A DNA stretch of 64,000 nucleotides from Oceanibaculum nanhaiense. GTDB lineage: Bacteria; Pseudomonadota; Alphaproteobacteria; Oceanibaculales; Oceanibaculaceae. The notes under the pieces were generated by a model. The model searched no databases. It had not been told where the DNA came from and was given only the letters and a program-made list of their open reading frames with translations. This document shows, in pieces, positions 54,987-59,702 of the stretch (within the stretch, counting starts at the first letter, position 1; each line of letters starts with the position of its first letter). The translations under genes and the position numbers were made by a program. Location of the stretch: NCBI RefSeq assembly GCF_002148795.1, contig NZ_MPOB01000001.1, positions 372,001 through 436,000 on the forward strand, written 5' to 3'.

Positions 54987-55083
54987 GTCTGCCTCTCGCC
55001 GCCGCGCTGCCTAGCTTGCGCCACGATCCCATGTTACACCCTAGAACCGTTGGCACAGCATGCTTGAAGCAAAAAGGACGGAT

Positions 55084-55488
55084 ATGATTTCTCCCCAGGT
55101 CGCGCTGATCTACGTCATGGTTCTGGTGTCCGCCAGTGACAGCGACATGACCGACGCCGAATTCAAGACCATCGGCGACATCGTCACCCATCTGCCGGTG
55201 TTCACGGAGTTCGAGGTGGATAATCTGCCGTCCGTCGCCAGCAGCTGCGCCGACATGCTGCAGGAGGACAATGGCCTCGATGCCGCGCTGGACCTCGTGC
55301 ACAAATCGCTGCCGGAAAAGCTGCGCGAGACCGCCTATGCGGTTGCCTGCGACGTTGCCGCCAGCGATGGCAAGGCAAGCCAGGAAGAGTTGCGGCTGCT
55401 GGAGATGCTCCGCCACAAGCTGCATGTGGACCGGTTGGTCGCCGCCGCCATCGAGCGCGGCGCCCGCGCCCGCTATATGCCGGTCTAG
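55084..55488 (+). CDS. TerB family (tellurite resistance-like) protein
   Basis: A 134-residue helical protein. MISPQVALIYVMVLVSASDSDMTDAEFKTI and YAVACDVAASDGKASQEELRLLEML show two acidic Asp-rich turns (SDSDMTDAE and ASDGKASQEE), the typical TerB metal-binding fold. The ATG at 55084 has AAGGA at 7-nt spacing; an ATG at 55060 is possible. TerB-like domains sense stress or act at the membrane; function here unknown. A hairpin (55551-55586) follows. Confidence 0.85.
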   Translation: MISPQVALIYVMVLVSASDSDMTDAEFKTIGDIVTHLPVFTEFEVDNLPSVASSCADMLQEDNGLDAALDLVHKSLPEKLRETAYAVACDVAASDGKASQEELRLLEMLRHKLHVDRLVAAAIERGARARYMPV

Positions 55489-55586: not shown

Positions 55587-55644
55587 ATGCTATTGTTAAA
55601 GCGCAGTGTTTGACGACGCGTGGATGCGAGGGGGCGGAACGGGC

Positions 55645-56034
55645 ATGAGTCGGGAGCATCTGAAGAAAAAGGCGCAGGAAGCGCTGAAGGAAGCCGACGG
55701 CAATGCCAGCCTGGCGGCCAGGCTGTTGCATGGCTGGGCCCTGGAAGATCAGGAATTGCTGCAGGCGCTGGTAAAGCCGATGCTGCCCAGCCTGTCGCTT
55801 CTGGCGGTGCAGCGCGCGGCCGGCAAGGATGATGGCTATCGCGCCAGCCGCCGTCGCCGGTCTCCGCCGGTTACCGAGAAGGCGGCGCTGGAGGCTGTTG
55901 CCGAGGCGCTGAGCGGCAAGCGGGCACCGGCCATGACTTCCACGCGCAATCCGCTGACAGCGCCCTCGGAAGCCAGCACGCGCCATCGCAGCGCCGTGCA
56001 GTTCCTCGCGTCAGCCTACAAGCCGAAAAGCTGA
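55645..56034 (+). CDS. Small basic hypothetical protein
   Basis: A 129-residue protein. REHLKKKAQEALKEADGNASLAARLLHGWALEDQELLQALVKPML (partly shown here as AARLLHGWALEDQELLQAL) is a helical start, followed by a basic run (YRASRRRRSPP) and a disordered Ser/Thr/Ala-rich tail. It is probably nucleic-acid or protein binding, but I recognise no family. The ATG at 55645 has a GGGGGCGG stretch upstream; a GTG at 55606 is an alternative. Confidence 0.65.
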   Translation: MSREHLKKKAQEALKEADGNASLAARLLHGWALEDQELLQALVKPMLPSLSLLAVQRAAGKDDGYRASRRRRSPPVTEKAALEAVAEALSGKRAPAMTSTRNPLTAPSEASTRHRSAVQFLASAYKPKS

Positions 56035-57971: not shown

Positions 57972-58457
57972 TTACCAGTTTTTCGCGATGGCCAGGCGGA
58001 ACGCCTCCAGCAACTCCTGCTCGATCTTGCCGCCGCTGCCTTGGATACGTTGGGCCAGCACGACATAGAGCGCGTCGATATGGCAGCGGATGATCGCCAT
58101 CTGCTTCGGGTTGGCGTCGCCGATCCGTCCGGCGACGGCGTGCAGCGAGCGGGCGATTTCGGTCAGCAGCGGATAATCGAAGGTGCCGCCGAGCCCCTTG
58201 ATGTCAAAGGCATGCCGGCGGATATCGACCATCAGGGGGTCCCAGCGCGCCGGGTCCTTTTCGGCGTCGGCGAGTGCCGACCGCAGCGACCGCAGCGCGG
58301 CGGCGACACTGGCGATGAATTTGTCGCCCGACTGATGGACGGCCTTCTCGATCTTCTTCAGCTCTTCGGGCTGTGGATTGATCGAAAAGCCCTTCTTGCT
58401 GTTCACCGCGCGGCGGCGGAGATCCATCGAGGGCGGAATGATCTGGGCCTTCGCCAT
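57972..58457 (-). CDS. Hpt-like protein lacking the canonical phospho-histidine
   Basis: A 161-residue helical protein of the Hpt fold. The motif region is IRRHAFDIKGLGGTFDYPLLTEIARSL (abridged: HAFDIKGLGGTFDYPLL). In canonical Hpt proteins the pattern is AHxxKG (for example AHKIKG); here the His position is Phe84 (codon TTT at 58206-58208), with a His two residues earlier (H82). Everything else of the motif, including Lys87-Gly88, is kept. It probably cannot take part in a normal phosphorelay unless H82 substitutes. It lies 45 bp downstream of a REC gene. Confidence 0.82.
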   Translation of the reverse strand: MAKAQIIPPSMDLRRRAVNSKKGFSINPQPEELKKIEKAVHQSGDKFIASVAAALRSLRSALADAEKDPARWDPLMVDIRRHAFDIKGLGGTFDYPLLTEIARSLHAVAGRIGDANPKQMAIIRCHIDALYVVLAQRIQGSGGKIEQELLEAFRLAIAKNW

Positions 58458-58502
58458 GTTCGTTCGACCTTAGTCTGCTGATTGGGTCTGCAAGTCTGTG
58501 TG

Positions 58503-58991
58503 CTAGTCGGCGCGCCGGTTGCGGCCGCCATGCGGCACTTGTCGGCGGCGCCGGTCCGGCCCGAAATATTGCTCCGCATTCACGAAGGGGCGTGGCCGCG
58601 CGATCACCGACACCAGCCGGCGGTAGAGCGAATCCACGGTGAAAGGCTTGGCCAGGAATTCGGTGACGCCACGGTCGCGCGCCTCCACCACATATTCCGG
58701 CTCGGAATTCGCCGTCAGCATGATGATCGGCAGCATCCGGTTCGGCGAATGCATGGTGTTGCGCACCGTGTCGATCAGCTCAATGCCGGACAGCGGCTCG
58801 ACGATCCATTCGGTGATCATCACATCCACCTCGCCGGCCTTGATGACCGCCAGCGCCTTGTTGCTGTCGGCGACCTTGCGGATGGCGATGGCACCCAGCA
58901 TCCGCAAGATGTCGTATAGCAGTTCCGTGGAGAGCGGATTCGGGTCCACGATCAGAAACCGAATCTGGCTGAAATCAATCTTCTCCGACAA
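58503..58991 (-). CDS. Single-domain response regulator with Glu in place of the phosphoacceptor Asp
   Basis: A 162-residue CheY-like receiver plus a basic tail (FGPDRRRRQVPHGGRNRRAD). RFLIVDPNPLSTELL has one acidic residue where two are usual; the phosphoacceptor motif reads VMITEWIVEPLSGIEL, so residue 61 is Glu (codon GAA, 58809-58811) instead of Asp. The Thr (IIMLTANSE) and Lys (EFLAKPF) are kept. A Glu at this site often mimics the phosphorylated state. The start is TTG at 58991 (the next in-frame Met is residue 31). Cotranscribed with the degenerate Hpt gene. Confidence 0.85.
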   Translation of the reverse strand: MSEKIDFSQIRFLIVDPNPLSTELLYDILRMLGAIAIRKVADSNKALAVIKAGEVDVMITEWIVEPLSGIELIDTVRNTMHSPNRMLPIIMLTANSEPEYVVEARDRGVTEFLAKPFTVDSLYRRLVSVIARPRPFVNAEQYFGPDRRRRQVPHGGRNRRAD

Positions 58992-59072: not shown

Positions 59073-59702
59073 TTAATTAAAAGTGCAAGCAGGTTGTTTC
59101 GCCAGCACCAGATGAAAAATGTGCCAGCGCTTGGGTTTGCCCAGGGCCGTGACGCCGTCCTCGATGGTCTCGTCCAGCTTTTCGACGCTGAATCCGGCAC
59201 ATAGGCTGTCGATGGCAGCCCGGTCATGGATGGTGATGCCGCGCCCGGCCCAGTCATCCTGCGGGCCATAAAGCTGGCCGGCGAAACGGCCGCCGGGTCG
59301 AATTGCCGCAGTCAGCCGCGCCCAAAGGGCGGGGAAATCCGCAGGAACGCACAGCGGCAGGGAGAAGCTGGCATTGACGAGGTCGCAGGCCGGCGGCAGA
59401 AAATCCTCGAACCGTTCGATGCGGGTTTCCAGCAACCGCTTGTCGGGCAGATCGGGCCGGGCCAGCAGCCGCTCGATGGCCTCCGCCGTCGCGTCGAGCG
59501 CCAGCACCCGCCAGCCGCGGCGCAGCAGTTCCAGCGTGTCGCGCCCGTCGCCGCAGCCGAGATCGAGCGCGAAGGGCGGCGGCCCGCCTTTTGCCGGTAT
59601 GCCCTCCAACGCGAACCGGTCGAGAGCATGCAGCAATGTCGGGCGGGGCGGCCGGTCCGTAACCGCATCATAGTAACGGCCCCAGCGCGCCTCGTCCGAC
59701 AT
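59073..59702 (-). CDS. Class I SAM-dependent methyltransferase, TehB-like
   Basis: A 209-residue methyltransferase. ALDLGCGDGRDTLELLRRGWRVLALDATAEAI is the SAM-binding site (abridged: LDLGCGDGRDTLELL). The pattern LGCGxGRDxxxL and the acidic end of strand two resemble TehB/thiopurine methyltransferases. QLYGPQDDWAGRG and FHLVLAKQ lie in the second half. Substrate unknown. It starts 12 bp after the M20 gene stop, so it may be cotranscribed. Confidence 0.83.
   Translation of the reverse strand: MSDEARWGRYYDAVTDRPPRPTLLHALDRFALEGIPAKGGPPPFALDLGCGDGRDTLELLRRGWRVLALDATAEAIERLLARPDLPDKRLLETRIERFEDFLPPACDLVNASFSLPLCVPADFPALWARLTAAIRPGGRFAGQLYGPQDDWAGRGITIHDRAAIDSLCAGFSVEKLDETIEDGVTALGKPKRWHIFHLVLAKQPACTFN

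Follow-up and report, generated by a model that had tools for sequence, protein, structure and literature searches.

A receiver (REC) and an Hpt protein encoded side by side in the window, the whole stretch of 64,000 nucleotides analysed here, have both lost the residue on which phosphotransfer depends. The reading we lean towards is that this pseudo-receiver and pseudo-Hpt form a cognate, phosphorylation-independent binding module, converted stepwise from a REC-Hpt pair that is widespread in α-proteobacteria. With no phospho-His, no phospho-Asp and a broken Mg site, the residues show that canonical phosphotransfer within the pair is excluded, and they suggest that the pair now signals through binding alone. 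The preliminary description had already placed both proteins outside canonical phosphotransfer, and in this it holds: the state is old and selected, as the 52 distinct pairs and the low dN/dS described below attest.

The REC and Hpt ORFs were confirmed at the coordinates given earlier. The genes concerned are listed in Table 1; those on the minus strand run in the order methyltransferase-like gene, receiver, Hpt, P0003 and P0004. Among the neighbourhoods compared, the methyltransferase-like gene is retained in the genus of the window and in genome G099 only, and the TerB-like gene is shared solely with the nearest congener.

Table 1. Genes of the REC-Hpt locus and its flanks, with positions in the window
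Feature	Position	Strand	Remarks
TerB-like gene	55060-55488	plus	adjoins comF
Small ORF	55606-56034	plus	convergent; ends the conserved block on the comF side
P0004	56087-56743	minus	218 aa; conserved protein, no known family
P0003	57227-57784	minus	small protein, no known family; next gene after Hpt in part of the clade
Hpt protein (P0001)	57972-58457	minus	161 aa
Receiver (REC)	58503-58991	minus	162 aa, TTG start, single domain
Class I methyltransferase-like gene	59073-59702	minus	upstream of receiver

By sequence and by fold, the first protein belongs among the receiver domains: it matches Pfam Response_reg (PF00072) at E=3.5e-18, and its modelled (beta-alpha)5 fold matches CheY with a Z of 19.9 and an rmsd of 1.8 over 128 residues. 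It lacks the phospho-Asp and the acidic pair for Mg. Alignment to relatives sets its motif ITEWIVEPLSG against ITDWNMEPMDG and places E61 in the phospho-Asp column, as the preliminary description had claimed. At the Mg site the first acid, D16, is kept, and P17 replaces the second (VDPN), a position at which 76 of 77 canonical pairs have Asp. Thr and Lys are indeed retained (T93 and K115, together with D16 and F112); the loss of the Mg-site acid had been overlooked. Among known aspartate-less receivers, Glu is the commonest substitute (26%), acid-1 and the Lys are usually kept, and acid-2 is usually lost (PMC4395418), which is the very pattern found here. Judged by these residues, the protein is a pseudo-receiver or aspartate-less receiver (ALR), that is, a receiver homologue without the phospho-Asp.

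The second protein matches the Hpt family PF01627 weakly (E=0.00096, under the Pfam gathering score), yet the assignment is firm because its orthologues and paralogues support it: six of nine orthologues match PF01627 at E<=0.1, and it can be aligned with paralogues whose HDMKGQGGTFGYPL-type motifs are clear. In the PDB, its profile also hits CheA P1 domains (E 0.0035), and the helical bundle of the family is reflected in six predicted helices, with F84 close to the end of the third. Where relatives have HDMKGQGGTFGYPL, it reads AFDIKGLGGTFDYPL, with F84 in the phospho-His column of HxxKG; K87, G90 and G91 are kept. The alignment thereby bears out both the Phe84 and the retained Lys-Gly reported earlier, and on this motif the protein is a pseudo-Hpt.

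To survey relatives, we gathered REC genes of the family from GTDB contigs and from the class itself (up to about 190 genomes), pairing each with its downstream Hpt; a genome contig search with the receiver alignment yielded 80 loci, and a scan of genome contigs with the single sequence P0001 gave no match. The resulting 160 distinct pairs comprise 77 Asp/His, 52 Glu/non-His, 20 Asp/non-His, 10 Asn/His, one Gly/Asp and no Glu/His, in proportions that are not those of nature, as the sample was gathered by similarity to the Glu form. Thus, among the 52 distinct α-proteobacterial pairs with a Glu-receiver, the Hpt His is kept in none, which rules out recent decay with relatives still holding the normal residues; no close orthologue with normal His and Asp, the finding that would have spoken against the preliminary description, was encountered. 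Both losses are common to three congeners (receivers 97, 77 and 75% identical) and to members of several other families. Because they are conserved in 52 distinct pairs, a sequencing artefact or chance is ruled out; the published base rates, 0.9% of Hpt domains without His and 2.0% of receivers without Asp (PMC12632262), give an expected frequency of about 1.8e-4 for an adjacent double loss if the two were independent. Two Glu-receivers have no detected Hpt: in L041 the sequence ends 138 bases on, and in L129 there is none within 6 kb, an exception that is either real or at the level of detection.

Most Glu/non-His pairs (49) fall in one main clade spanning Thalassospira, Thalassobaculum, Ferrovibrio, Nisaea, BAL199 and the genus of the window, in which the phospho-His column of the Hpt is Arg in one pair and either Leu, Tyr, Phe or Ile in the other 48. 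Phosphorylation via another residue, whether H82, H126 or another acid, is very improbable in these proteins. H126 speaks for it most, being His in 43 of the 49, but it is equally common in canonical Hpts with their normal His and looks structural. H82, proposed earlier as a possible route of transfer, is His in just 3/49. No column of the 49 Hpts is invariantly His, H126 coming closest, and hence no substitute phospho-His is evident; moreover, the receiver Mg site is broken across the whole main clade.

Other states of the family were seen in the same sample. Ten pairs form a separate clade of the opposite half-dead type, with Asn for the receiver phospho-Asp (S/A-NWQM) and the Hpt His kept (L018, L020, L022, L026, L159, L192, L216, L219, L239, L240). 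An Asp-intact receiver stands beside a His-less Hpt (carrying Leu, Met, Phe or Trp) in L017, L045, L053, L057, L059, L133, L198, L199, L208, L210 and L222. In addition, Ferrovibrio has a second, diverged Glu/Leu pair (L123-L126, L128) beside the pair in L090, L091, L094 and L095.

Selection on the pair is apparent at several levels. Against the nearest congener, the receiver has a dN/dS of 0.056 and the Hpt one of 0.085 (0.039 to 0.261 for other genes of the neighbourhood), and both genes are under purifying selection. Within the main clade, E61, K115 and D27 of the receiver and K87, G90, R59 and N19 of the Hpt occur in 49/49, with T93 of the receiver and Y131 and E146 of the Hpt in 48/49. Both partners have newly fixed residues: on the receiver side D27 and A94, on the Hpt side A17, V18, N19, R59, Y131 and E146. 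Of these, D27, R59, N19, Y131 and E146 are known to be rare among canonical pairs from the alignment. Since Glu61 is invariant while the Hpt column varies, the Glu itself looks selected; in the Hpt, what matters looks to be the absence of His together with a mostly hydrophobic side chain. The loss of several active-site residues might be taken to mean that the pair consists of functionless relics decaying slowly, but this is scarcely credible, being contradicted by the low dN/dS, a Glu invariant over many families, the newly fixed residues and the retained gene pair.

The order of the two losses was read from a tree of both proteins with the two phosphosite columns removed. Glu arose about three times on this tree: in the 49-row main clade (SH-aLRT 99); in a two-row group whose sister combines an Asp receiver with an Hpt carrying Phe; and in one of two tandem fused REC-Hpt copies (L235, G047:C148:300-3500) with Arg at the phospho-His, the sister copy having an Asp receiver and the same Arg in its Hpt. 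A receiver-only tree likewise has three Glu origins, and a single clade for all Glu rows was rejected (AU p=0.0035). The Hpt His, by comparison, was lost in about 15 changes on the tree, a recurrence that well exceeds the published rate (0.9% of Hpt domains), and in 20 pairs the receiver Asp is still intact. Outside the main clade, about one quarter of the tree lacks the Hpt His; that all three Glu origins should fall on such a background has a probability of about 0.015 by branch length, a statistic that rests on three origins, which is few, and on a background in which some long-branch His-less Hpts outside the main clade are poorly aligned. Because in two of the three origins the sister pair joins a His-less Hpt to a receiver that still has Asp, the Hpt His was probably lost first and the receiver Asp changed to Glu second; in the window's own clade both changes fall on one branch, and the order is readable in the other two origins only. 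The preliminary description had the two residues lost, and the proteins freed, together. This does not agree with a His loss that is frequent and precedes Asp-to-Glu in both origins with a readable order, and the wording should be replaced by one in which the losses would be sequential, the second coming only after the first.

Can the two proteins still dock? The genes lie in frame in the window, and read-through of the two stop codons gives a single chain (P0007) with a 16-residue linker. AlphaFold2 was run on this single chain rather than on two chains, with 70 alignment rows, 20 of them paired and seven of these canonical pairs, and returned a pLDDT of 89.4 and a pTM of 0.85; confidence was low at 150-154 and 161-179 but nowhere else. 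If two equally large domains had not been placed relative to each other, a pTM of about 0.5 would be expected, and hence the relative placement of receiver and Hpt appears confidently predicted, pointing to a docked pair; the modelling of the complex proposed earlier thus gave a confident docking, in single-chain form. The model shows that the pseudo pair would have kept dockable surfaces. It does not prove a new docking mode: docking must also have been a property of the canonical ancestors, whose mode AlphaFold2 may simply be repeating. Mutual information between the proteins revealed no interpretable interface at the available alignment depth. Two conserved tails may also contribute. The receiver ends in YFGPDRRRR, of which YFGPDRRR is near invariant across canonical and pseudo pairs, and no paper on the YFGPDRR tail came up in the literature searched; the Hpt has at its N-terminus a hydrophobic-Pro-Leu segment (QIIPxxxxL / QIIPPxxxL), whose strict pattern occurs in 38/49 pseudo-Hpts, 15/65 canonical Hpts and 4/142 remaining proteins. 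Each is predicted to contain short strands, and together they may serve the whole family as a tether that needs no phosphate; this would account for the survival of the pair after its chemistry was lost.

The receiver had also been described as locked in an active-like state. The invariant Glu and Lys hint at this, but in comparisons of the receiver half with CheY the activated forms rank first in what amounts to a tie with apo forms (Z 19.9 vs 19.0). The same tie weighs on the idea that the effector is the receiver by itself, constitutively on via Glu61, with the Hpt in an accessory role as a tether or chaperone, holding the receiver or positioning it close to P0003/P0004. Among aspartate-less receivers Glu is the commonest replacement and can make them constitutively active, and the retention of acid-1, Thr, aromatic and Lys with loss of acid-2 is their usual pattern (PMC4395418); the YFGPDRRR tail, too, is fixed. 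However, Asp-to-Glu by itself is often non-activating (PMC4395418) and the Hpt is retained in almost every genome, and we consider this quite unlikely.

Less easily dismissed, though still unlikely, is a role as decoys, in which the His-less Hpt would bind receivers, including those of hybrid kinases, while the Hpts of the cell's canonical pairs would be bound by the Glu-receiver, damping phosphate flow. Canonical relatives are indeed encoded in the same genome (on C4 a fused Asp/His REC-Hpt; on C5 an Asp/His pair and another Hpt), and the Hpt docking residues are retained. There is also a precedent in plant AHP6, likewise an Hpt without the phospho-His (it has Asn), which signals by binding and competes with functional HPts (PMC7402358). 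AHP6, however, is a competitor of living phosphorelays from an unrelated lineage, and no account presents it as one member of a pseudo pair. In the present case new residues are fixed in both partners, pointing to each other as partner, and the two genes are adjacent in nearly every genome, whereas a decoy requires just one.

If the pair is instead a binding module, P0003 and P0004 are plausibly its partners in the subset of genomes where synteny links them. Neither has a family in Pfam, NCBIfam or PHROG. P0003 is conserved over its first ~110 residues, with a variable, Pro/Ala-rich tail, and P0004 follows it in every locus of sufficient length. Two helix-strand-helix repeats are predicted in P0004, at 36-78 and 135-183, an internal duplication with SLEIAGFMVTPRELTDQM and DLERTGYHIMPDEATPFM; a PDB fold search with P0004 gave nothing significant, RyR Repeat12 domains coming top at E 0.5. 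P0003, P0004 and the convergent small ORF follow the pair in the genus of the window, G099, Nisaea, BAL199 and Thalassobaculum, so that the three-gene run of the preliminary description exists in a subset of the clade, but Thalassospira, Ferrovibrio and several others retain just the pair. In four loci judged by the start of the sequence, no kinase or output gene was recognised near the pair, the neighbours resembling housekeeping and transport genes.

We therefore picture the favoured binding module as follows. After loss of the Hpt His, the receiver would have fixed Glu; the Hpt would still present its docking motif (Lys87, Gly90, Gly91), with a hydrophobic residue replacing His, and would pack, in a docking predicted with confidence, on what we infer to be the active-site side of the receiver. 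Glu61, facing Lys115, might fix the receiver constitutively in a single conformation, probably an active-like one, and switching would come from amount, partner binding or ligand rather than from phosphorylation, plausibly with the P0003 and P0004 products as partners in part of the clade. A broader proposal, to which we give somewhat less than even chances, is that dedicated phosphate-free REC-Hpt complexes arose at least three times by the two-step route, the docking interface becoming a permanent or ligand-controlled switch, partly with P0003/P0004.

Pseudo-receivers and pseudo-Hpts are each already known. In the aspartate-less or pseudo-receivers (ALR, PsR), a class that includes RitR, ChxR and FrzS, Glu is likewise the commonest substitute for the phospho-Asp, with acid-1 and Lys kept and acid-2 lost (PMC4395418), but the characterised response regulators RitR and ChxR have fused DNA-binding outputs, in contrast to the stand-alone domain beside a His-less Hpt seen here. 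Caulobacter HmrB (of the putative Hpts HmrB/HmrX) is by description likewise without HxxKG; unlike the window Hpt, it depends on His residues of its own, and the model proposed for it is a dimeric hairpin (PMC11481889). The evident ancestors are the canonical α-proteobacterial REC-Hpt pairs with the FGPDRRR tail, which have the same gene order and tails at ~30-45% identity and keep Asp and His; their function is undescribed in the literature searched. For a conserved cognate pseudo-receiver/pseudo-Hpt pair in bacteria, no description was found in the open-access literature searched. A 2025 review (PMC12632262) calls the switching of bacterial pseudo-receivers a mystery. Here, a pseudo-receiver comes with a conserved, equally dead partner and with many living relatives as controls, including some in the same genome, and what receiver and Hpt do for each other without phosphate is directly testable with two small proteins.
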